DNA of 48,637 bases from a virus: the IMG/VR virus record IMGVR_UViG_3300028027_000080, positions 1 through 48,637 of that record, one strand, 5' to 3'. A program made the position numbers and the translations under genes. Under the pieces are notes generated by a model, which did no database searches, was not told the origin of the DNA, and saw only the letters and a program-made list of their open reading frames with translations. Shown piece after piece: positions 6,916 through 48,612 of the stretch. The first letter of the stretch is position 1; every line of letters starts with the position of its first letter.

Positions 6916-7977
6916 CTACTTTGACAGCTCGTAGAAGCCTTTGCCCCAAAGCCCCTGCAGGCGAGTGAAGTACTTCTCGTACCTAAGCCCAACCGCGTCT
7001 AGTCCATAGCGGTCTTTTGAGTACTTGCTAATCGCGGCCCTATCTAAGGTCTTAACCTGCTCAGTTGCGTCAGCGAACTCTTGCATGGTGTGACAGCGGA
7101 ATCCCGTCACTCCATCAATGACGGTTTCGGTAAAAGCGCCCCAGTCTGTGGAAATAATTGGGGACCCACAAGCCATCGCTTCGATAGCAACTGTCCCAAA
7201 AGGCTCCACGTAAATAGTCGGGGTAAAAGTGGCAATTGCGCCCCCCATGAGCTTGGCTCGCTCTTCTGTCCCCACAACGCCGACATACTCCCCATAATCG
7301 GGCGCAGAACCCTGTCCAGCGACCACCAGACGCTTTCCTAGGGCCTTACAGGTGTCAACTGCAATCTGATAGCCCTTACGCTCAATAAGGCGTCCTATGA
7401 AGAGATAGTAGTCATCCGGCTCTTCTTGTAGGGGAAAGTCCTTAATGTCGATGTAACTCGGTATTACCGTGTCATAGAACTTGCCGTCAAGTGCATGGGG
7501 GTCGGTCACCTTGGACCCGTAGCAGGAGTGCATCCACGCATAAGACTCAAATACTTTGTAGGGGGCAAATGAGCCACCATAGCCAATTCCGAACTCCACG
7601 CTCAACTCATCAGGGAAAGCATCAGCTATCGGCTTGGAGGCAAAACCGGCGATAAGGCAAATAAAGTCCTTGTGTTCTAGTCGCTCTTGAATTCCCCTAA
7701 TGACATTGATATTGAAGTTCACCCAATGTGGAAGGTTCCAGTCAAACGATGCAGCCGAGTAGTGATTTGGACCGACTGCCTCTAAACGCTGTTCTTCGGT
7801 AATACAGGTTATGTGCTCGTCGCAGGGGGCTTCGTTGAACTCGCCACCGTACAGAAACACGGTATGTCCGAGGTCCTTCATCATGATGCAGAACTTACGG
7901 ACTTTCTCCGTATAGGCACACGCCGTGAATTCTTCGGTCGTATTGGTGTGAGGCAGGGAAACTACATGAAATCTCAT
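6916..7977 (-). CDS. Glycosyltransferase, GT4 family
   Basis: 353 residues with the GT-B, GT4 layout. The nucleotide-sugar half contains FIGRLIERKG (193-202) and the EX7E motif VEPFGTVAIEAM (Glu258, Glu266), followed by ACGSPIISTDWGAFTE. The N-terminal acceptor half begins MRFHVVSLPHTNTT. The enzyme would transfer a sugar from an activated donor with retention of configuration. The acceptor is not evident. It stands alone between the glycine-rich fibre and a collagen-like fibre, so glycosylation of fibre Thr residues, virion proteins or host wall polymers are all possible. It has no membrane segment, and its sequence looks more G+C-rich than the fibre genes beside it, hinting at separate acquisition. 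Confidence 0.88.
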   Translation of the reverse strand: MRFHVVSLPHTNTTEEFTACAYTEKVRKFCIMMKDLGHTVFLYGGEFNEAPCDEHITCITEEQRLEAVGPNHYSAASFDWNLPHWVNFNINVIRGIQERLEHKDFICLIAGFASKPIADAFPDELSVEFGIGYGGSFAPYKVFESYAWMHSCYGSKVTDPHALDGKFYDTVIPSYIDIKDFPLQEEPDDYYLFIGRLIERKGYQIAVDTCKALGKRLVVAGQGSAPDYGEYVGVVGTEERAKLMGGAIATFTPTIYVEPFGTVAIEAMACGSPIISTDWGAFTETVIDGVTGFRCHTMQEFADATEQVKTLDRAAISKYSKDRYGLDAVGLRYEKYFTRLQGLWGKGFYELSK

Positions 7978-10268: not shown

Positions 10269-10958
10269 CTAGTCATTCCACCATGCTGTCCAGGGCTTAG
10301 CAGGAGCAGAAACTGCCGTTTCGTTGCTGACGCCAGTGTAAGCAACCGAGATTGTGACCTTTGCATCATTCTCATAGCCTGTCCAGTCGCCGCCATCTGA
10401 ATAAACAAAAAGTTGAAGAATTTCGTCGGTGTTCATAACGGCAACATCTGCGAGATAGGTATTTGCGTTGTACTCCGCTTCGTTCCAACTGTAGTTAATC
10501 GCATGTGCTTTATCGATAGGCGTTGCGGCTGTACTGCGAAGGTCAAGTACGCCATTGCCAAAGTATGGCTGTGTCCCAAATGCACCAAATTTGCCAATTC
10601 CTTCATCTGGGTTTCCAAGCCACATTGTTGGCTTCAGTTCGTCAGTCACTGAGCCGTCATAGCCAACATCCTCAAAGCCAAACATCCAATCTGATGGATT
10701 ATCGTACTGGCTATGCTGTGTCTTGGAGTTTTTGGTCTTGATTGCTGCAAGGCGGAGCAGTCGTTCGGTTGTATCAACATTAACAGTTTGCTCGTCACCT
10801 TGCCAAAGACCTGCCGTTGCTCCATAAACCTGCTGAGTGGTGAACCAAATTGACTCAATCTTGACACGGAATGGGAAAGACACATTCAGGTAAGAAGGGT
10901 CGCTCTGCCTTACTGTCCAGTCGTAGTTGACGATTGATGGTGCGATGATTCCAGACAT
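10269..10958 (-). CDS. Hypothetical virion protein, 229 residues
   Basis: A beta-rich protein with no signal or membrane segment: a leader (MSGIIAPSIVNYDW), Trp- and Tyr-rich middle and a C-terminal ATVSVAYTGVS-like strand before WTAWWND. The composition and the position between fibre genes suggest a virion or fibre-attached protein, but no family is recognised. An AGGAG ribosome binding site precedes the ATG. It appears to be the first gene after a promoter-like gap, so it may head a transcript running through the acyltransferase-like gene. Confidence 0.6.
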   Translation of the reverse strand: MSGIIAPSIVNYDWTVRQSDPSYLNVSFPFRVKIESIWFTTQQVYGATAGLWQGDEQTVNVDTTERLLRLAAIKTKNSKTQHSQYDNPSDWMFGFEDVGYDGSVTDELKPTMWLGNPDEGIGKFGAFGTQPYFGNGVLDLRSTAATPIDKAHAINYSWNEAEYNANTYLADVAVMNTDEILQLFVYSDGGDWTGYENDAKVTISVAYTGVSNETAVSAPAKPWTAWWND

Positions 10959-10991
10959 TGTTTCTCCTAGAAAGAGTTAGGGTTCCCGAAC

Positions 10992-11032
10992 ATTATGACA
11001 TATATTGTTTGATTTTTAGAGTACAAAAAATC
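10992..11032 (-). promoter_or_regulatory. Extended -10 promoter candidate and A/T inverted repeat
   Basis: The 78-base gap is one of the largest in the window. On the minus strand it holds TGTCATAATG, an extended -10 (TGn plus CATAAT at 10992-10997), about 34 bases before the ATG. Immediately upstream is an A/T-rich 7-bp inverted repeat, GATTTTT / AAAAATC (11011-11017 and 11026-11032), which could end the transcript of the preceding gene. No -35 box is evident. Confidence 0.35.
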
Positions 11033-11036
11033 TACA

Positions 11037-12610
11037 TTAGTAGTAATAAGTGTCGGTCCTGGATGCAGGGACATAATCCTGCCTGCTGCTGACGTTCCAT
11101 CGCTGTTGCGAGCCTGTTATGTTTACCCTAACTCTAATTCTTTGGTCAGGACTTGTTGACCATGTGGCAATAGAGCCGGCCCCCCTGACTCGTATTCTTC
11201 CTCCTCCTGGTGCCGTTCCGATACTTACGTCTGGAACATTCCAGCCAAGGCTTCGTATGGTCGTCCCAGAGTTGTTGGAAAAAGGTGCTTGCAAGCAGTT
11301 TATTGAACTATCAGTATTGGCCGTTGTTGACGTACCGGAAAAATCAACTAAAAAGTTTCTAGAGGAAGTAGTTATGTTTACACCGGTAATAACAACCCAA
11401 GCTTCTATGTCAAGAGAAGAAATAGAGTATCTTCTTTGACCGTCAGAATAAGGGCCAGTATTTCCAACTCCAGGTATTGCGTAGACTGATGTCTGACTAA
11501 ATCCATTTCCGGTTACAGTAAAAGTTCCGGTCACATCACTATAAGATTCGTTCCCACCCCAACTGCTTGTATCTACTGTTACGTAGTATGAAGTATCAAC
11601 AACGACATTATAGGACTGGGTTGCTGTTGTTACAACAGAAGCTTCCGCACTGTCTACATAGTCACCGTCAGTGTTCCACGTTCTTGTGAATACATAGTAT
11701 GTTTCACTTGCCAACAATGTCCTGTACGAACCCCAGGACGAAGAATAAAGCGTGCTGATTGTCCACGTCTTTCCGGCACCTGAGTTTGTTGTATTTAAAT
11801 AAGCACTGTTGGCGTTATAGCTATACGCATAGCCAGAAAGTTTTATGTACGTTTCCGTGTTGGAAAATCCACTACATGCAAGAGGATTGTAGGTTACCGA
11901 AAACTGTCTAGCCCCCGAACCGCTTCCGGATGCTGGCTGAGTGGGTGAAATAGCTGCAAGAGTTGGTGTTGATGGGGTTCCAAAGTTTGGCGTAACCGAT
12001 GAAGAGGTAGCAACAGTTCCAGCACCCACAGCATTGTTTGCGGTAACTCTAATTTTATATGAACGAGCCGTAGCCGCAGAGTTGTTTCTGACCGTAAAGG
12101 AAACACCGCTTGCCTGAGAGCCTCGATTAACCCATGCCTCAGCGTTTAATTGGGTTTCTACCGTGTATGAAGTTATCGCAGTTCCCCCATCGCTTGTTGG
12201 GGCTGCCCATGTTGCTGATATGGTTCGGTCAGATGCAGTTGCAGAAAGGCTCGTTACCACACTGGGGGTAGTTACTGGAACAAACGACGAGGATATTGAC
12301 GAGTACTGACTCGGCCCTACCGTATTAACGGCAGCCACCCTGAAGTAATAAGCGGTGCCGTTTGTTAAACCAGTAACCGTTGTTGAAGTATTGGACGAAA
12401 CTCCGTCACTAAACGTTGTTACCGAAGATGCAAAAGTGGCAGAGGTTGAGTACTGAATTATGTAGTCGGTTATGTTTGTGTATCCAGTAAATACCGGAGC
12501 GGTCCACGAAAGAGAAACCTGAGTATTGCCAGCAGTTCCCGTTACGGATGTAGGAGGATTTGGTGCTGTATAAAAAACACTACTAGCTACGGTTCCTCGG
12601 CGGATGGCCA

Positions 12611-15191: not shown

Positions 15192-15971
15192 TTAACCTCG
15201 TTTAAAGATTTTGTTAAAAATATTTTTATTGACTTTTTCTTCCTCTAAAGCCTTGTCTACTCGTATTTTTTCGCGCCTATATGGGCCTGCGGTGCCCTCA
15301 AATGGAGCAACGTGTCCCATTCCAAATCCAGTAGTAGCAACATACTTAAAGTACGATTCATCATTGAAATCAATTTTTTCAAAGTCTAAATTTCTCTTAA
15401 ACGGGATTAACTGAGCTAGCGATGTCCCTTGCCGTATGCCAAAAGCAGAGTCTGTGGTGATGTTTAGAACGATATTTGCAAGGTGATAAAAATCAGTATG
15501 AACTATCGCTGGGATTACTGAATAGTTTTCATTCGGTTCCCAGTAAATAGGCAAGACCAAGGTTGACCACCCTGGTGCTGTTTCAATACGCCATGGGTTC
15601 ACTATCTTTGGGTACTGACCGGTTTCCATTTTACGAACGCTTGTCATCGGGCACTGACCTGTTGATTCGTATGGAAATCCAGAAATATGATTTATCCCAG
15701 CGGCAGGATTAAATTCATCTCCACCAGTTTCCCAATTTCCATCTTCAGCAGGCCTGAATCTAAAATTTGTCCATGCTGGAAGTGTTACTCCAGCTGCAAG
15801 AAGGTCTATTGTCCCTGCACATTTACGAACAGAACCCTGATTCTTCCCAATCATTTTAAACCATGTTGGTGGGTTAGATATTGAGTTAACAAACGGAGGA
15901 CTCTCCATGAGACGGTTGTCTATAGGGGTGCAACGAATAGACCCCGGCTTTACCTTGGGCAGTTTTTTCAC
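15192..15971 (-). CDS. DUF6065-like protein (cupin/dUTPase-like fold), halogenase neighbour
   Basis: About 259 residues from a GTG at 15969-15971, preceded by GGA at good spacing; a TTG at 15992 would add 7 residues and overlap the halogenase by 20 bases. The protein has the run LVLPIYWEPNENYSVIPAI, then HTDFYHLANIVLN, and finally IRQGTSLAQLIPF. That last segment resembles the 'G..IAQLIPF' strand of trimeric dUTPase/dCTP deaminase folds, and the whole resembles the phage family known as DUF6065. The catalytic motifs of true dUTPases are not all present. Such proteins occur beside halogenases in phage and bacterial natural-product-like cassettes; the role here is unknown. Confidence 0.55.
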   Translation of the reverse strand: MKKLPKVKPGSIRCTPIDNRLMESPPFVNSISNPPTWFKMIGKNQGSVRKCAGTIDLLAAGVTLPAWTNFRFRPAEDGNWETGGDEFNPAAGINHISGFPYESTGQCPMTSVRKMETGQYPKIVNPWRIETAPGWSTLVLPIYWEPNENYSVIPAIVHTDFYHLANIVLNITTDSAFGIRQGTSLAQLIPFKRNLDFEKIDFNDESYFKYVATTGFGMGHVAPFEGTAGPYRREKIRVDKALEEEKVNKNIFNKIFKRG

Positions 15972-15972
15972 T

Positions 15973-17505
15973 TTAATTCCATTCGCTATCAATTGTTCTT
16001 ATTTCGCGCAACGCTGTTGCATGGTCGACCATCTCATGGTTGTGGCGATTATGCCGCATTTCATCCATCTTCGTAAATAGTTCTTCTCGAATCCCAAGCC
16101 TATTTATTGCAGTTGTGCACGAATCTTTGTTTAACAAACCCTGCCCTTGAGCAACGTGAGCCATATGTGGAGCTAAAAACATTTCACCAGACGAATTGTC
16201 AAAATCATACCTAGACGGAGGACGCTCAGCCCATAGGTCAATAATCATCTGCAGTTCTTCATTGATTGGCATGTGGGACATTTCTTGCCAGAATTTTGAA
16301 TCTTGTCTATCTGAATAATAATGCAACCTAATCATAGAAAGAATATTACGCATCATTTTTTCAAAGCCTTGATTGTAATGTTTTTGAGACGCAACATTAG
16401 ATGGCACATACGAAGCAAGATATGGAATCAAATATTTAATCTGCTGAATGGTTGAACCAATACTGCTGGCTTCCAGGGGCTCAACAAAAGAAGATGACAA
16501 ACCTATTGCGCAGCAGTTTTTAACCCAGCAATTTTTTAAATATCCGGCATCAAAGTTAATTACGCGAGTATTTTCTACCTTATACCCTGTCATCTGCTCT
16601 AGTTCATGAACGGCCTCATCGGTAGATATGAATTGAGATGAAAAAACATAGCCATTACCGCGGCGCTCCTGGGTGGGTATTTCCCACACCCATCCAGCGC
16701 TTGCGGCACGCGCGCGCGTATAGGCTTTTATTTTTCCACTAGGGTCACTTTCGGTTGGGAAAGGTATTGCCGTATCGCAAAGAAGATTGTCACTAAACGA
16801 ACACCACTCGTCGGCTCCTAGTTCTTTCATTAATACCCTATTGAAACCGCTAGCGTCAAACCAAAAGTCAGCAACCACGTTTTCGTTGAACTCGGTTGTG
16901 ACGGAGTTTATTGTTCCATTTTCTGAGTTAACAAGAACACTTTTTACTGATGCGTCAACAAATTTAATACCACGCTTAAAAGCAAGAGAAGTAAAATATT
17001 CGTTAAGTTTATTTGTGTCAAAATGAAACTGGTTTGTTGCTTTATGAAGAGATTGGCGACTAATTTTGTCTTTTATTAAACCAATACTTGATGTTTGTGT
17101 AGTAAAAAGTTTGTCTTGCTCAACAAAACCCATATAACTAGCAAATAAACCATGAGCATAAATATCATCTATTTCGCCAACGCTATGAAAATAGTCTTTC
17201 GTATGAGTTGACCAATTTTCAAATCTAATGCCGTACTTGTGTGTTGCGGCGGTTGCTTCAATCATCGCTTCTCTAGGAATATCGCACGTGTCCATAAACT
17301 GAGCCCAATGCTCCGTGCTTCCTTCGCCAACTCCAATAATTCCTATTTTTGATGACGACACAACCGTAATCGGTGACAAAGGAAAAGCTTTGCGCATGTA
17401 TAACGCTGTTATTAGGCCGGCAGTTCCTGAACCAACTATCCCAAACGACATAGGGGTTGTCCCTGATGCTGTCCTAAAATCAACTAATTCTTTATCTGTG
17501 AGCAT
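15973..17505 (-). CDS. Flavin-dependent tryptophan halogenase
   Basis: 510 residues, the normal length for the PrnA/RebH class. The FAD-binding GxGxxG is GIVGSGTAG (22-30). The catalytic lysine (PrnA Lys79) is Lys90 in THKYGIRFENW. The halogenase signature WxWxIP is WVWEIP (272-277), and the second catalytic acid lies in SSFVEPLEAS (Glu345, PrnA Glu346). These enzymes use FADH2, O2 and Cl-/Br- to make a bound hypohalous species that halogenates the indole ring of tryptophan. No flavin reductase is encoded in the window, so the host would supply FADH2. Substrate may be free Trp or a protein-bound one. It is followed by DUF6065-like and unknown genes and preceded by a 2OG-Fe(II) enzyme, a tight five-gene cassette between two fibre blocks. 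Confidence 0.88.
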   Translation of the reverse strand: MLTDKELVDFRTASGTTPMSFGIVGSGTAGLITALYMRKAFPLSPITVVSSSKIGIIGVGEGSTEHWAQFMDTCDIPREAMIEATAATHKYGIRFENWSTHTKDYFHSVGEIDDIYAHGLFASYMGFVEQDKLFTTQTSSIGLIKDKISRQSLHKATNQFHFDTNKLNEYFTSLAFKRGIKFVDASVKSVLVNSENGTINSVTTEFNENVVADFWFDASGFNRVLMKELGADEWCSFSDNLLCDTAIPFPTESDPSGKIKAYTRARAASAGWVWEIPTQERRGNGYVFSSQFISTDEAVHELEQMTGYKVENTRVINFDAGYLKNCWVKNCCAIGLSSSFVEPLEASSIGSTIQQIKYLIPYLASYVPSNVASQKHYNQGFEKMMRNILSMIRLHYYSDRQDSKFWQEMSHMPINEELQMIIDLWAERPPSRYDFDNSSGEMFLAPHMAHVAQGQGLLNKDSCTTAINRLGIREELFTKMDEMRHNRHNHEMVDHATALREIRTIDSEWN

Positions 17506-17528: not shown

Positions 17529-18113
17529 TTACTGATACCACGTCACCAAAGAGTACTTAATCCCAGCTTTTACTTCGTGCGCAACATGTAAATATGGGAA
17601 ATTGCTAGGAAACAAAATTACCGAACCAATTTTTGGTTCAACCGTAACTCCAAAAGTTGGAAACTCAAGCTGCCCCCCCTCTTCAGGTTCACCCAATATA
17701 GCAACCATACTAAACACACGAGCATTGTCCCTAAAGTGGTCGTAATGAGCATGGTATTCAGAGCCTGGCAAATATTTTAAAACAGAGTACGGTTCAAAAA
17801 ATCCCATTGGAATCATGTTTTCAGATGTGTAATCTTTTACCAATTCTTCTACCGGAAACCTAACATTCCTGTCAAATAACTCTGATAATTCAGTTGGTTG
17901 GTAAGGCTTCATTAGGGGGACAAGAGAACAACCCAAAGAAGTCCTATAGGATGTAACTGCGCCATTCCCGCCAACGCCGGAGTTTCCCCAAGTGAGCTCA
18001 CTCCATCCACTTTCTATTTCCTCGTTTAATGCGTCGGTAAACGATTTAAGCCCAGAAGAATTTAAAGCATTTTCATAAACAGAAATACACGGAGCAGGCG
18101 ATAAGTGATTCAT
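17529..18113 (-). CDS. 2-oxoglutarate/Fe(II)-dependent oxygenase, prolyl 4-hydroxylase-like
   Basis: 194 residues. Iron ligands: HxD in YHAHYDHF (His123, Asp125) and the distal His in VAHEV (His179). The 2-oxoglutarate-binding Lys is in IKYSLVTWY (Lys186), and the supporting GSVILFPSNFPY is typical of prolyl 4-hydroxylase-type enzymes. These hydroxylate Pro (or other side chains) of proteins and peptides. The neighbours are collagen-like fibres rich in Gly-Pro-Thr, an obvious candidate substrate. It overlaps the gene upstream by ATGA and the halogenase begins 23 bases downstream. It is the second oxygenase-shaped protein in the region, but the first with a complete triad. Confidence 0.85.
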   Translation of the reverse strand: MNHLSPAPCISVYENALNSSGLKSFTDALNEEIESGWSELTWGNSGVGGNGAVTSYRTSLGCSLVPLMKPYQPTELSELFDRNVRFPVEELVKDYTSENMIPMGFFEPYSVLKYLPGSEYHAHYDHFRDNARVFSMVAILGEPEEGGQLEFPTFGVTVEPKIGSVILFPSNFPYLHVAHEVKAGIKYSLVTWYQ

Positions 18114-18526
18114 ATTACCTCAAAACAACCTTCATGATATTGGGTACCGTTTTCTGAACGTACTGAGAAAACTTTAGCACCTGGGGTAAAGAACCTTTCC
18201 CTAAACCTAACTACATGTTTTTCCCGTAACCGAGGCTTAAAGACCTTAAAGTACCCTTCGTCAAAAACTTCAAGAAATGTAGTTGTATCAAAAGTTACAA
18301 ACTCGTTGGTTATGTCTATTGAGTAAATAAATCCAGCATTAACTGAAGGCTTGTGGTCAATGTCAGTCTTTTCCGGTGTTGATATAATTTCAATTTTACT
18401 TGCAGATATTCCATCATTTATCCCACCTATTCGTATTGAAAGATGAGAGTCTTTAGCCATTTTTGTGGCTATTTCTGGAATTCCGTCTTGTGCCATATTT
18501 AGCGGCACATAGACAAAACGTTTCAT
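18110..18526 (-). CDS. Hypothetical protein, 138 residues
   Basis: Not recognised. The sequence starts MKRFVYVPLNMAQDGIPEIATKMAKDSHLSIRIG, then has a segment ISTPEKTDIDHK and a C-terminal region with many aromatic residues (FDTTTFLEVFDEGYFKVFK, REKHVVRFRERFFTPGAKV). No membrane segment. The ATGA overlaps on both sides (18110-18113 and 18523-18526) show that it is translationally coupled to the 2OG oxygenase and to the 75-residue gene, so it is part of that operon and probably acts with the oxygenase. Confidence 0.6.
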   Translation of the reverse strand: MKRFVYVPLNMAQDGIPEIATKMAKDSHLSIRIGGINDGISASKIEIISTPEKTDIDHKPSVNAGFIYSIDITNEFVTFDTTTFLEVFDEGYFKVFKPRLREKHVVRFRERFFTPGAKVFSVRSENGTQYHEGCFEVI

Positions 18527-18750
18527 GACAGTTCAGCTAATTTGCTTTCTATCATTTCTAAAGAGCTAGCCAATGTTGCTACTCGTGCTCGTTCACCAAT
18601 GACCATGTCTCCACCGGTCTCTTCGGCTGGGTCGTAAGTATCTGGGTCTACACCAATGCGGATGAGGAGAGAATAAATCTCCGACTGTATGCCTGCCCTT
18701 ACGCTTGTCAATGCTGCCAGTTTTTGTTCTTTTGTAAGACCAAGGTCCAT
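18523..18750 (-). CDS. Small helical protein, 75 residues
   Basis: A short helical, coiled-coil-prone protein: LTKEQKLAALTSVRAGIQSE, then IGVDPDTYDPAEE and a second helix with ARVATLASSLEMIESKLAEL. The 'LTKEQK...' opening and the 'GvDP' turn give the impression of small conserved phage proteins. A TAGGAG ribosome binding site precedes the ATG. It is coupled by ATGA to the 138-residue gene and begins 9 bases after the histidine-rich fibre gene, so the cassette is transcribed with the fibres. Confidence 0.65.
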   Translation of the reverse strand: MDLGLTKEQKLAALTSVRAGIQSEIYSLLIRIGVDPDTYDPAEETGGDMVIGERARVATLASSLEMIESKLAELS

Positions 18751-18759
18751 CTTTTTCTC

Positions 18760-20583
18760 CTAAATATTTATAAGAACGTATGCCGCTCCAGAAGAAGCTG
18801 CAAAACTATCGGAGTCAGCAGTTAAGCCAGCCCGAGTATCGTATGTAATTGTACCCGCTACTGAGTCACTAACTACGAGAATAGCACCGCCCCCGCCTGC
18901 GCCACCCCTTTTGCCTGCTGAACCTGTAGCTCCGGTTCCTCCTGCGCCACCAGAACCACCTGCTCCACCAGAGCCTCCTGCTCCTCCTGCTCCTCCTGCT
19001 CCTCCTGCTCCGCCTGAACCACCTCCGCCACCTGGATAAACACTGGGAGGGTTAGGGACTGAAGTTGCAGGGTTGGGGTGATGGGACCAGGTGTTGCTTC
19101 TAGTTGGAGCATGAGAGTGCCCACCATCGTTTGGAGTATGAGCATTGGGGTGAGTATGGTAATCGTGTGTTGAGCCAGCAGCCCAATGATTATCGTGTCC
19201 AACATATTTTGCATGGTAAAGACGAGTATCGTGCCCACCAGTTGTGTCCCCGTGGCTATGCCCACCGTGACCGTTTGGTTTTTGATGATAGTGAGGGAAC
19301 GGGTAATGATGACTTAATTGCCAATATGCATGCCACCAATGAGGGTTCCAGTGATGTGTTCCTCCATGCGGGCCATCATTATGAGGATGATGAAAGTGTC
19401 CATTGTGGTGATGGTGAGGGTTGTTGTGGTGAGCAGCGGGGTGATGGGACGCAGGAGTAATTTTGTCCCCGCCATAATGGCCTGCCGGATTGTGGTGATT
19501 TCCAGCCTTAGTTGCGTGGCCGTGTCTATCTGAATGGTTCGTATAGTGGTGATGATGAGACGGGTTATGTGTTGCAGGATTCGGATGTGTATGTGGTGCA
19601 TTATGAACACTTAAAGTTGGCGCAGATGCGCCACCAGAACCACCCGCTCCAGATGCTCCAGATGCTCCTACCGAACCTGATGCACCAGTAGAACCGGAAG
19701 CACCTTGCAAACCAGTAGAGCCAGTTGCACCAGCAGACCCAGTCCCACCGGAGGAACCGATAGAAACAAACTTTCCTGAACCAATAACAGTTTTAGCAAC
19801 TACGCAAACAATTCCTCCACCAAGACCGCCAGACCCTCCGGCACCACCTGCTCCGCCTGCCCCACTAAGCCCAGTTGCCCCAGGAGCTCCTGATGAGCCT
19901 GGAGAACCAGAAGAACCAGGAGACCCTGACGCACCAGCGCCTCCTGTTTGTCCACGACCACCAGAAGCGCCAACAATACCTGCATTTGGACCGTATGTTC
20001 CAGCATATCCAGTTGCTCCAGGAGACCCAGTTGCACCAGGGCTTCCTGTTGCCCCAGGGCTTCCAGTTGCACCTGCACTTCCAGTTGCACCAGGGCCAGT
20101 TGCCCCCGAAGGGCCAGCAGAACCAGTCGTTCCTTTTGAACCGCCACCTATAGCAATCATTCCCGATGTGTGCATGAACACCCCACCAGACATTGCGTTG
20201 ATGTCTTTGTACAGATACTCGGGAAGGGCGGTTATTCCAGGGCTAGTTCCGCCTCCGCCTTCTCCACCAGCACGATAAGTAATTGCGGATTGAGAATGGC
20301 CCTTAACTGTTCCGTCAGAAACAGTAGATGCGGCTTCGCCAACTGTCCCAGAAGAGACAGAACCAATTCCGATGTAGCCATTATTTGTAAGAGTATTCTT
20401 AACAAAGACTCGGTAGCCGTTTGTATTTAGAAAAACTCCTGTATTAATCACCAGATTGTTATAAAACATGTCTGACGTGATTGCCGTGTTTGATGTGACG
20501 ACTACGTCCCCGTCTCCACCATGCCCGTAAATTTCGTCGTTTGCAGCGCGTGCAACACTTTTTTCAATTCTAGAAATAGCCAT
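18760..20583 (-). CDS. Histidine-rich collagen-like tail fibre
   Basis: 607 residues. N-terminal 75 residues: an attachment domain (VVVTSNTAITSDMFYNNLVI...TNGYRVFVKNTLTNNG) homologous to the next gene. Residues about 150-257 and 280-320: collagen-like and Ser/Gly triplets. Residues 327-502 contain 50 histidines in 176 residues, with repeats such as HTH, HGH, HFHH, HYH, HSH and HHHH, together with many Asn, Pro and Gly. Residues 518-568 are a second Gly-rich run, followed by a 40-residue C-terminal beta segment (ILVVSDSVAG...AAYVLINI). A metal-binding stem or tip is likely; T4-type fibres bind iron through HxH motifs. The His domain corresponds to 19078-19605. Confidence 0.82.
   Translation of the reverse strand: MAISRIEKSVARAANDEIYGHGGDGDVVVTSNTAITSDMFYNNLVINTGVFLNTNGYRVFVKNTLTNNGYIGIGSVSSGTVGEAASTVSDGTVKGHSQSAITYRAGGEGGGGTSPGITALPEYLYKDINAMSGGVFMHTSGMIAIGGGSKGTTGSAGPSGATGPGATGSAGATGSPGATGSPGATGSPGATGYAGTYGPNAGIVGASGGRGQTGGAGASGSPGSSGSPGSSGAPGATGLSGAGGAGGAGGSGGLGGGIVCVVAKTVIGSGKFVSIGSSGGTGSAGATGSTGLQGASGSTGASGSVGASGASGAGGSGGASAPTLSVHNAPHTHPNPATHNPSHHHHYTNHSDRHGHATKAGNHHNPAGHYGGDKITPASHHPAAHHNNPHHHHNGHFHHPHNDGPHGGTHHWNPHWWHAYWQLSHHYPFPHYHQKPNGHGGHSHGDTTGGHDTRLYHAKYVGHDNHWAAGSTHDYHTHPNAHTPNDGGHSHAPTRSNTWSHHPNPATSVPNPPSVYPGGGGGSGGAGGAGGAGGAGGSGGAGGSGGAGGTGATGSAGKRGGAGGGGAILVVSDSVAGTITYDTRAGLTADSDSFAASSGAAYVLINI
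19078..19605 (-). repeat. His-rich domain: 50 His in 176 residues
   Basis: Low-complexity coding stretch of the gene at 18760-20583 (residues 327-502). The codons are mostly CAC/CAT in irregular spacing, so it is not a perfect tandem DNA repeat. At least six HxH motifs can be seen. The flanking collagen-like and poly-Gly parts are very poor in histidine, so the boundary is sharp. Confidence 0.9.
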
Positions 20584-20584
20584 A

Positions 20585-21349
20585 TCACACCTGTGACATA
20601 TAGTAGACGGTTCCTGGGTTTTGTCCAGTTACATCAGTGGTTATTCCAGGAGCCAATGCCTCAGCGGAAGAAACAATGAGTATTACTCCTCCACCTGCAG
20701 GTGCAGTTCCTGGGGCTTTAATGTAAGCCGTACCTGACGCAGGACCGGAAATGTAGCGAGCAGCGATAATGACTATTCCGCCCCCAACTTGGCCTAATCC
20801 GCCAGCACCTCCACGCAAAAAGGTAGGACCGCCTGCGGCAGTGACGGAATAACCAGTAACTGCTTGTCGTGGAATTCTGAAGTAGTTAGCGCCACCCATT
20901 GATGAGTGGGGAACAGTTGCCAAAACACCAGTTGCAGAGCCTCCCAATGAATGCAGTACTGCTTCTAGTATTCCGCCACCCTGAGCGATAGAGCCAGCAG
21001 TTGCAAAACCAGTCGTAAAACCAATCGTAGAGTCAGTTCCCATGAACTTCAATGTGCCTTTAACGAAGATTCTGTATCCGTTTGGCTGTAGGCGACAACT
21101 CGTGTTAATCGTCAAATCGTTGAAGTACATATCGCGGGTCATTGTGTAAACGCTTGCAGACGGAGCCATACTCAAAACGGTTGTGGTTCCGTCTAGTACG
21201 GCGTCACCATCAGCGCCTGTTCCATAAACAGAGTCAACTGCTTCGTTGAAGTAGGCGTTCCATACAGCCCCATCCCATTGCCAACTCTTAGGACCAACAG
21301 TAAAAATCTGATTTACATACGGAGAAGCAGGAAAAGTAATTGCTGGCAT
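20585..21349 (-). CDS. Tail fibre protein with Gly-rich lobe
   Basis: 254 residues. It begins [20 protein letters not shown], a fibre N-terminal module ending SWQWDGAVWNAYF. The middle (about 65-115: MTRDMYFNDLTINTSCRLQP...GYRIFVKGTLKFMG) corresponds to the N-terminus of the His-rich fibre downstream, and the end is Gly-rich with VGGGIVIIAARYISGP and AGGGVILIVSSAEA. This is a Gly-rich adhesin of the same class as 5657-6553, only shorter. It is coupled to both neighbours (TAATG at 21349; 1 base from the next gene), so it probably forms part of the same fibre complex as the His-rich protein. Confidence 0.75.
   Translation of the reverse strand: MPAITFPASPYVNQIFTVGPKSWQWDGAVWNAYFNEAVDSVYGTGADGDAVLDGTTTVLSMAPSASVYTMTRDMYFNDLTINTSCRLQPNGYRIFVKGTLKFMGTDSTIGFTTGFATAGSIAQGGGILEAVLHSLGGSATGVLATVPHSSMGGANYFRIPRQAVTGYSVTAAGGPTFLRGGAGGLGQVGGGIVIIAARYISGPASGTAYIKAPGTAPAGGGVILIVSSAEALAPGITTDVTGQNPGTVYYMSQV

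Positions 21350-21506: not shown

Positions 21507-21507
<1 letters not shown>
21349..21507 (-). CDS. Small tail-fibre-associated protein (52 residues)
   Basis: ATG at 21505-21507 ([12 protein letters not shown]...), overlapping the giant fibre stop as TAATG; the frame is open a little further, but an earlier start would lie inside the giant fibre without a ribosome binding site. The protein contains [20 protein letters not shown] and [15 protein letters not shown], the pattern of short phage proteins found next to tail fibres ('R..DGA.IP.DPAN.DYQ.YL.W.A.GNTP'). It may be a fibre assembly factor or a fibre-tip cap. Confidence 0.7.
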
Positions 21508-25652
<4,145 letters not shown>

Positions 25653-46940: not shown

Positions 46941-47489
46941 TCACCTATCGGCGTTTGGTGGCCCCTCTAGCTCTACTATTTCCTCTGCTGAGCCTTGTGG
47001 AGCCTCTATGGGAACCCAGGCTTTTGAGTAGTTGTACTCGGTTATTTTACGCTGCTTAATCACGGAGCTGTCCATCATTAGGGTTAGTTCGGCGTAGCTC
47101 ATGTTAAAGATGTCTTTAATCTCGTCCATGCTGTACTTGCCAGAGTGGTAAACATCCTTGACAATAGCCGACATATATTTGGCCACAATCTGCCCTCGGC
47201 CCCTATTTAGACATATATGCATGACCATGGCATCTATGGCGTCAACGTCTTTGAAGATTACCGGCACGGTCTTTTTGTCTCGTTTAAGAACGCGCTTGTC
47301 TGACTGAGCACATATCCACCGGTGAAAACCGTCAATAATAAATCCGGTTGACTTCTGGACAATGATTGGAGAAACCCATCCATAGTCGTGCAGGGAGTCG
47401 GCCAAGACTTGTAGGTCTGGCTTCAGTACATGAGTTGCTCGCCATGGGGCCGGCTGTATCTGGTCCCATTTAACTTTTTCAATTTCCAT
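46941..47489 (-). CDS. ParB-like nuclease-domain protein (IbrB-type)
   Basis: 182 residues. The ParB/sulfiredoxin-like core covers 1-95: WDQIQPAPWRA, LADSLHDYGWVSPIIVQ and IIDGFHRW (51-58), where GxHR binds nucleotide or carries out the NTPase/nuclease function of the fold. Residues about 105-145 are helix-turn-helix-like (SMDEIKDIFNMSYAELTLMM). It overlaps the PAPS-reductase-like gene by 11 bases, giving the IbrA-IbrB order seen in phages and mobile elements. The role of such pairs is not settled. Confidence 0.75.
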   Translation of the reverse strand: MEIEKVKWDQIQPAPWRATHVLKPDLQVLADSLHDYGWVSPIIVQKSTGFIIDGFHRWICAQSDKRVLKRDKKTVPVIFKDVDAIDAMVMHICLNRGRGQIVAKYMSAIVKDVYHSGKYSMDEIKDIFNMSYAELTLMMDSSVIKQRKITEYNYSKAWVPIEAPQGSAEEIVELEGPPNADR

Positions 47490-48612
47490 TTTCTTCTGCC
47501 TGAATTGCTTTCTGGAGTGAGTAGGCCTTTGTTCCTGGACCTATTGGGTTTACCGCTGTTATGTTTATTTCGTTAAGCAAAACATTTCGTATAAGCCAGT
47601 GAAGCGGATACGAGTTTGGGTCTTTTGCATGTTTCTTCCTAAATTCAGAAGCGTACGCCATGGCTCGTTTTTTTAACCCAGGCGTCAGAACGTTGTCTTC
47701 AATACATTCCTTGACTCCCTCCCATCCGTTTTTTGCGTAGCGCATAATCACGGCTTCAATATCAAATTCTGGCCACCATCGACGCTGAGCATCAATCTGT
47801 GGAAAACATGCAACTAGGCGGTCATAGAAGTCCGGCTCAGTAGCAACAACGTCACCAATCCTCCTAATCGCAACGGCGTGCAGTGGAATACCAACGCGAG
47901 AGTTACTACCAGTCAGGGCGGCATAGTCGTAGTAATCACAGTAAGAAGCGTCGTGTTCTTCGGTAATAAACTTGAATACATCGTCAGTAGTCCAGTCATA
48001 AATCACTTTTGCAAACCTAAGCGGTATATTTTTTCGCATCTTGTAAGGTATGACGATGTAGTTCTCATGCAGTTTCTGTACACATGAGCGGTAGCGAATC
48101 ATTGACTCGTTTGCCCTCACGCCAGTAATGAAAGCAACCTTACCTTTTTTACCCTGCATAGTGTAATAGTCAATGGACTCAGGTATTTTCTTGTCTGGGT
48201 CTAAACCAAAATGTTCAGCCCTTATGGCCCAGTCAGGTATAGGGCGAATTAGTCGTCCTTGTTTTTGTCGCATCCCTGACCACAAAAGACAATATTCACG
48301 ACGTCCAAGAACCCATATCTCTTGGCTCTGCGGCAGGCAGTACCATTCCATATCAACCCAGTCGTAATTGCGAACCTGCTCCACAAAGCGCACAACAGAC
48401 GGACTAACCATCTCTTCGTCACGGAAAATTACTTTTACCGGGCCAAGACCGCGCTCTTCATGTATTTCTTTTGCCAGGTACAGCGCTGCCGTGCTGTCCT
48501 TACCTCCAGAGAACTGAACACACACGGTGTCAAACGTGTCATAAACATGACGCATGCGTTCGCGTGCTGCATCAACGCAGGAGATATCTAAATAGAGTTT
48601 TTGCCTGCTCAC
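47479..48612 (-). CDS. PAPS reductase-like PP-loop protein (IbrA-type)
   Basis: 377 residues, start GTG at 48610-48612. The PP-loop ATP-binding motif is FSGGKDSTAALYLAK (SGGKDS at 35-40). KVIFRDEEMVSPSVVRFVEQ, ITGVRANESMIRY (about residues 165-180: the family's 'GvR..ES..R') and the Trp-rich WTTDDVFKFI follow. This is the phosphoadenosine phosphosulfate reductase / N-type ATP pyrophosphatase fold. It pairs with the ParB-like gene. Family members include IbrA, regulators and proteins of DNA-modification systems (DndC), so DNA or RNA modification or host gene regulation are possible. Right edge: 25 bases upstream only, so the promoter may be outside. Confidence 0.8.
   Translation of the reverse strand: MSRQKLYLDISCVDAARERMRHVYDTFDTVCVQFSGGKDSTAALYLAKEIHEERGLGPVKVIFRDEEMVSPSVVRFVEQVRNYDWVDMEWYCLPQSQEIWVLGRREYCLLWSGMRQKQGRLIRPIPDWAIRAEHFGLDPDKKIPESIDYYTMQGKKGKVAFITGVRANESMIRYRSCVQKLHENYIVIPYKMRKNIPLRFAKVIYDWTTDDVFKFITEEHDASYCDYYDYAALTGSNSRVGIPLHAVAIRRIGDVVATEPDFYDRLVACFPQIDAQRRWWPEFDIEAVIMRYAKNGWEGVKECIEDNVLTPGLKKRAMAYASEFRKKHAKDPNSYPLHWLIRNVLLNEINITAVNPIGPGTKAYSLQKAIQAEENGN

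Follow-up and report, generated by a model that had tools for sequence, protein, structure and literature searches.

Why a phage should encode a fibre protein in which more than a quarter of the residues of one long stretch are histidine is the question raised by the locus described here. The window, meaning the whole stretch of DNA that was analysed, comprises the 48,637 bases of an IMG/VR virus record, and the fibre gene sits among its tail and fibre genes. An earlier, sequence-only reading had reported 50 histidines in the 176 residues from 327 to 502, and translation of the minus strand gave exactly these coordinates and counts, amounting to 28.4% His with 13 HH and 12 HxH pairs. The collagen-like and poly-Gly flanks that it had described were likewise borne out: the collagen repeat scored 32.3 bits against the Pfam cut-off of 27.2 for PF01391, and only 3 of the 53 histidines of the whole fibre, at residues 21, 96 and 138, fall outside the domain. 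That reading had also proposed looking for the domain in environmental phages, and viral contigs yielded 71 distinct inserts of this kind. The features on which the analysis draws are collected in Table 1.

Table 1. Features of the window in and around the His-rich fibre gene, with the basis of each assignment
Feature	Position	Strand	Basis
phrog_7084 protein, last invariant cassette gene	15192..15992	-	presence in 53/53 loci
Flavin-dependent halogenase (PF04820)	15973..17505	-	Pfam, motifs, tree
2OG-Fe(II) oxygenase, prolyl-4-hydroxylase-like (PF13640)	17529..18113	-	Pfam, profile
orf138, small conserved cassette ORF	18110..18526	-	cassette comparison
orf75, small conserved cassette ORF	18523..18750	-	cassette comparison
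His-rich collagen-like fibre protein (HISFIB), 607 aa	18760..20583	-	translation, Pfam, orthologues
Conserved C-terminal scaffold strands GGGGAILVVSDSVAGTITY..., residues 565-607, past poly-Gly	18763..18891	-	alignment, AlphaFold2
His-rich insert, residues 327-502, 50 His/176	19078..19605	-	composition, conservation, 71 related inserts
Conserved scaffold strand GGGIVCVVAKTVIGSGKF, residues 256-275, ahead of insert	19759..19818	-	alignment, AlphaFold2
Fibre Gly-X-Y (collagen-like) stretch, residues 148-253, Pro mostly at Y	19825..20142	-	PF01391, register count
Fibre N-terminal beta module, residues 15-85, conserved scaffold	20329..20541	-	AlphaFold2, cross-cluster identity
PARA254, 254 aa, upstream paralogue of fibre	20585..21349	-	same N-domain and strand pair

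From its N-terminus to its C-terminus, the fibre consists of the beta module, a Gly-X-Y stretch, the strand GGGIVCVVAKTVIGSGKF, a second Gly-X-Y run, the His-rich part, poly-Gly and GGGGAILVVSDSVAGTITY. AlphaFold2 modelling of the full fibre placed the beta module mostly at pLDDT 83-93 from residue 20 onwards, and the His domain at 24-35, that is, with no confident fold or beta-needle and no coordination geometry that could be modelled. The upstream paralogue PARA254 possesses the N-domain and strand pair of the fibre without its His/collagen insert, and because the same pair, GGGIVCVVAKTVIGSGKF and GGGGAILVVSDSVAGTITY, flanks the His-rich part of the fibre, the latter is a loop inserted between two strands of the scaffold. 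The predicted PARA254 fold resembles collagen-like proteins of Pandoravirus and Orpheovirus (BFVD, E 1.6e-10) and of uncultured Caudovirales, and a fold search of its model against solved structures in the PDB returned nothing below E=1. The fibre and its His domain had no match among the 50,697 phage records of INPHARED, hence no isolate there, and a search of a genome contig collection with both also returned nothing.

Comparison of relatives revealed that the fibre gene belongs to a cassette with the order PARA254, His fibre, orf75, orf138, 2OG-Fe(II) oxygenase, halogenase and phrog_7084. Searches of orf75, orf138 and phrog_7084 against Pfam, NCBIfam and PDB suggested no function, apart from a weak hint of a dUTPase fold for phrog_7084. 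The relatives comprised at first 17 full or partial orthologues from viral contigs, to which later scans added more. In the first 17 flanked relatives the cassette order was the same, barring short contig ends or an interposed extra ORF, and the genes outside the cassette varied. A scan with PARA254 returned 80 loci, and one with a halogenase alignment returned 80 loci at 47-76% identity, with about 500 further candidate stretches lying outside the examined set; of nine new loci found through the halogenase only, all nine encoded a His fibre. Among the 53 cassette-type loci that were non-redundant at 95% and had enough flank, each of which was found by similarity to cassette genes, so that very distant exceptions could be missed, the paralogue and the phrog_7084 protein were present in every case, and the His fibre was intact in 52 (11-43 His per 100 aa). 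The exception, L184, has a frameshifted fibre in which the His-rich insert is still encoded; the break, at 10571-11083 of that locus, is either a frameshift or an assembly error. The oxygenase was found in 50 of the 53 and was missing from the flanks of three, and its proximity to the fibre, for which coincidence had been allowed, is thus that of a conserved cassette with fibre and halogenase.

The cassette halogenases form one clade (97/93), and in the neighbourhoods of eight outgroup halogenases from cyanophage, pelagiphage, single-cell marine and gut sources no His-rich fibre was found, the highest content being about 10 His/100 aa, in fibre genes of Syn10 that are rich in Gly. Linkage within the cassette persists through rearrangement. 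The fibre lies on the opposite strand in L141-L144, the oxygenase is relocated to a position behind phrog_7084 in L095-L098 and L106 and lies about 2.9 kb further on in L138, and one 100-kb phage contig (L215, 2173-17999) carries two tandem cassettes. Both of these include a fibre, an oxygenase, a halogenase and phrog_7084, and the His content per 100 aa is 13 in one fibre and 34 in the other. Furthermore, the histories of cassette and phage backbone are discordant. The contig of L122 matches the window at 81% in the sheath, 65% in the baseplate and 93% in a head-side protein, whereas its halogenase is only 53% identical and its His insert is unrelated; the contig of L025 matches at 46% in the sheath and 32% in the baseplate, yet its halogenase is 76% identical and its insert is of the same type. 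The cassette passes between phage backbones as a unit, and vertical inheritance as the only source of the linkage is ruled out by this discordance.

Several additional features of these regions were observed. An extra ORF of about 230 aa stands between oxygenase and halogenase in L030 (10507-11211; no Pfam match) and just ahead of the halogenase in L171 (2921-3598), and may encode an additional modifying enzyme. One in-frame TGA lies inside the halogenase match of G013, the contig of L103 (69880-71352). In the window, a group 1 glycosyltransferase is encoded amid fibre genes (6916-7977), and in L028, L030, L044 and L045 close homologues of it (67-93%) lie downstream of the cassette. Also in the window, a ParB-like gene adjoins a phosphoadenosine phosphosulfate reductase-like gene (phrog_2302; 46941-48612).

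In the oxygenase, H123, D125, H179 and K186 are invariant, corresponding to the HxD...H motif and the 2OG-binding lysine, and the best solved chains in a profile search were prolyl 4-hydroxylases (1e-8). The target of prolyl 4-hydroxylases in collagen is the Y position of Gly-X-Y. In the Gly-X-Y repeats of 22 His fibres, proline occupies Y 101 times and X 12 times; Y exceeds X in 19 of the 22, the reverse occurs in none, and the remaining three lack proline in these repeats. In 32 further collagen ORFs from these loci the register is the opposite (44 Y versus 523 X), with none favouring Y, although the sequences are related and treating them as independent in Fisher's test overstates the significance of the difference. 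The phage of the window also has an X-Pro collagen fibre, at 21507-25652. The prospect that the oxygenase modifies the fibre is about an even one. No paper that connects phage and collagen with prolyl hydroxylase and tail fiber turned up in the library that was searched.

The halogenase scored 340.8 bits against PF04820 (cut-off 21), and its GxGxxG motif, Lys90 and WxWxxP motif are invariant or nearly so, with the lysine aligning with that of a solved halogenase. Its nearest solved relatives are tryptophan halogenases, and VirX1 of cyanophage Syn10 is among the matches. The PF04820 family is named for its action on free tryptophan. The tryptophans of an HHW..HWWHAY motif in the insert were considered as the substrate; this candidate was weakened by the finding that 19 of the 71 inserts are missing tryptophan. 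Tyrosine is present in all 71, and if the insert is what the halogenase acts on, Tyr or His would be a likelier target than Trp. That the fibre is its substrate is, in our estimate, somewhat less likely than not. In the cyanophages Syn10 and S-SZBM1 (L063, L067), too, halogenase genes have Gly-rich fibre genes as neighbours, together with annotated 2OG oxygenase and cupin genes in S-SZBM1 and a run of similar-sized unannotated genes in Syn10, and the association of fibre, halogenase and oxygenase may be a wider theme.

The halogenase, with the oxygenase and phrog_7084, might instead make a halogenated small molecule or modify a host component, and co-segregate with the fibre merely as part of an exchange block. 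The usual substrates of this halogenase family are indeed free Trp or small aromatic compounds (PMC8407142), there are cyanophage halogenases with no His fibre nearby, and the inserts without Trp would pose no difficulty. However, a plain neighbourhood predicts no linkage through inversion, relocation, duplication and backbone exchange, and the cassette-clade halogenase was never without a His fibre in the 53 loci, making this alternative an unlikely one.

The histidines themselves bear the marks of selection. They are encoded by mixed codons (29 CAT and 24 CAC over the whole protein), which indicates that the domain did not arise by one recent codon expansion, and the tandem repeats of the fibre gene are confined to its Gly-X-Y and poly-Gly parts, the His part being free of them. 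In the alignment of the window with L009, 49 of 50 histidines are kept, compared with 100 of the 152 residues that are not His (p = 6e-7), and the corresponding figures are 38 of 45 and 63 of 132 for L010, and 33 of 47 and 46 of 139 for L020; because distant alignments are biased towards His-His matching, the close pair of window and L009 provides the cleanest evidence. In this pair, 25 His codons are identical, 24 synonymous and 5 replaced, and 51 replacements have occurred in the 195 codons of the insert, versus 4 in the 140 codons of the N-domain. Thus, the insert evolves faster or gets exchanged, with its histidines held nonetheless. Histidine accounts for 23 of the 41 invariant columns in an alignment of 11 sequences, and when 22 sequences are aligned, 11 histidines never change and a further 8 are conserved in 90% or more. 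The His richness is far beyond chance and under selection.

At greater distance the sequence of the insert is lost and its composition stays. The 71 distinct inserts were taken from the fetched loci (190 with halogenase, redundant) and were cut from first to last histidine, which slightly raises their His percentage; His makes up 13-38% of every one, with a mean of 24.6. As the 71 inserts and 22 fibres are kin, these counts are not independent. In composition-adjusted BLAST, the inserts fell into 15 mutually unalignable clusters, and cluster representatives were no more identical to the window insert than shuffled sequences (e.g. 31% versus 31%, or 43% versus 43%). Across the same clusters the N-domain is 46-62% identical to that of the window. 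Some inserts are repetitive, as with HHTPGGHHH in L096 and HHFHQQSN in L121, and some clusters contain paired Cys beside His. To judge from the sequences, selection keeps the histidine composition of the insert and not its sequence. Content kept without sequence is what would be expected of a many-site metal-binding or cross-linked material, as opposed to one fixed fold, and the insert probably binds metal.

A different use of so much histidine would be as a pH-dependent polycation, neutral at lake pH and positive in acid, that binds teichoic acid, polysaccharide or membrane, metal being irrelevant. Charged residues are scarce in the 71 inserts (D+E about 4%, K+R about 3%); the many histidines and few acidic residues would suit a polycation, as would the anionic cell-wall polymers of the probable hosts (see below), but Lys and Arg should then be able to replace His, yet they are rare and His is kept. 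The low K/R content favours metal ligands over a polycation, the paired Cys beside His in some clusters also agrees better with metal, and the polycation is considered improbable.

The sequence-only reading had pointed to a more specific view, in which repeated HxH motifs would coordinate iron as in T4-like fibre tips and the phage would enter via iron uptake systems. That the domain is His-rich and that HxH is present are not in doubt, and iron binding has been put forward as a role of HxH motifs in the fibres of other phages (PMC11705849). Nevertheless, the frequency of HxH is close to that expected from composition (z = 1.9 for the 71 related inserts and -0.8 for the 15 cluster representatives), HH is at the expected level, and H..H and H...H are depleted among the related inserts, from which it follows that the domain has no recognisable metal motif. 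HxH is indeed repeated in the domain, but without enrichment beyond what its His content would produce. Nor did a T4-like iron tip find support, given the pLDDT of the domain and a profile search of PDB chains that produced no match at E<10, T4 gp37 included.

The probable hosts also speak against entry by this route. WhiB is a marker of actinobacteria and their phages, and a WhiB gene (PF02467) was detected above cut-off in 17 of 20 related contigs, the window itself having no match above it. The nearest isolates to the sheath are mostly Gordonia, Brevibacterium and Arthrobacter phages. The hosts are probably (aquatic) actinobacteria, which have anionic cell-wall polymers. Such hosts, being monoderm, are not known to possess siderophore receptors of the TonB-dependent outer-membrane type. 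Because such receptors would be absent from the probable Actinobacteriota hosts, entry through siderophore or iron uptake receptors with iron held in T4-like HxH sites, as in the Ferrojan Horse hypothesis, is unlikely, and together with the findings on HxH this leaves the iron Trojan horse very little credence. Still less can be said for a flexible spacer or low-complexity filler of drifted composition, for, although the AlphaFold2 confidence is low, the insert is Gly/Pro/Asn-rich and some relatives contain repeats, such a function needs no histidine, a costly residue, which is under strong purifying selection in the alignable cluster and abundant in all 71 inserts.

The explanation that accounts best for these observations is that of a metal-coordinating, enzymatically modified collagen-like adhesion fibre with a His-rich loop, which as a whole we consider to have about the same chance of being right as of being wrong. 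According to this explanation, a scaffold composed of the beta module and the Gly-X-Y and poly-Gly stalks would display one long His-rich loop, and this loop would coordinate many divalent metal ions, whether Zn, Cu, Ni or Fe, among which the sequence does not discriminate. Metal would most likely give fold and stiffness to a tip that is otherwise disordered, and cross-link it. Location of the fibre at the tip and a role in adhesion are reasonably likely, and the residues between the histidines vary fast, as might be expected on a host-contacting surface. The oxygenase would hydroxylate Y-position prolines of Gly-X-Y and so stabilise the stalk, and the halogenase would act on aromatic side chains in the loop, whether Tyr, His or Trp; fibre, oxygenase, halogenase and phrog_7084 are inherited together as a cassette. 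The fullest version, in which a mobile cassette builds a metal-hardened tip with halogenated and hydroxylated loops and its own fibre is the natural substrate of the halogenase, is tentative and rather unlikely to hold in every part.

Should it hold, the consequences would extend beyond this locus. Viral flavin-dependent halogenases are already known and used as biocatalysts, and the cassette offers a concrete candidate natural substrate for one clade of them. This is perhaps, to our knowledge, the first phage fibre in which His composition, not sequence, is kept. The putative metal-binding domain is also far larger than the HxH motifs behind proposals that phages act as metal ligands in natural waters.

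Known systems resemble parts of this arrangement. VirX1, a flavin-dependent halogenase of cyanophage Syn10 (PDB 6qgm), has the PF04820 fold and matches the window halogenase at 8e-41, but it is on a separate branch from the cassette halogenases, and its locus, also beside Gly-rich fibre genes, is without a His-rich fibre; a review names no natural partner for it (PMC8407142). Bacterial prolyl 4-hydroxylases, such as that of Bacillus anthracis (3itq/5hv0), are the best PDB relatives of the oxygenase and have HxD...H and the lysine in common with it, whereas the cassette enzyme is short (194 aa) and aligns with them over the C-terminal half only. In fold, the PARA254 scaffold matches collagen-like proteins from Pandoravirus dulcis and Orpheovirus (BFVD S4VX73, A0A2I2L5F3). 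The T4-like gp38 adhesins consist of a poly-Gly sandwich with hypervariable loops, and the Gly-rich stalk and variable loops of the present fibre are alike in plan; homology or a fold match to them was not found. In the T4 gp37 tip and, as has been proposed, in the fibre of Alteromonas phage R22Y (PMC11705849), metal binding is likewise based on histidine, a role that is only proposed for the present fibre. Fibres of that type have about 6-7 spaced HxH in a trimeric fibre, whereas here a single loop of a collagen-like fibre contains 50 His and, unlike in gp37 and R22Y, the sequence is replaced between relatives and the His content stays. Finally, the jaw of Nereis/Alitta, an extracellular animal structure, contains the His/Gly-rich proteins Nvjp-1 and Nai11527, which are Zn-loaded and reported to be halogenated and cross-linked (PMC13120676). 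The phage fibre is likewise His/Gly-rich and encoded beside a halogenase, a likeness of function and not of homology, and if the proposed reading is true, it would represent a microscopic parallel to the halogenated, Zn-hardened jaws of nereids.
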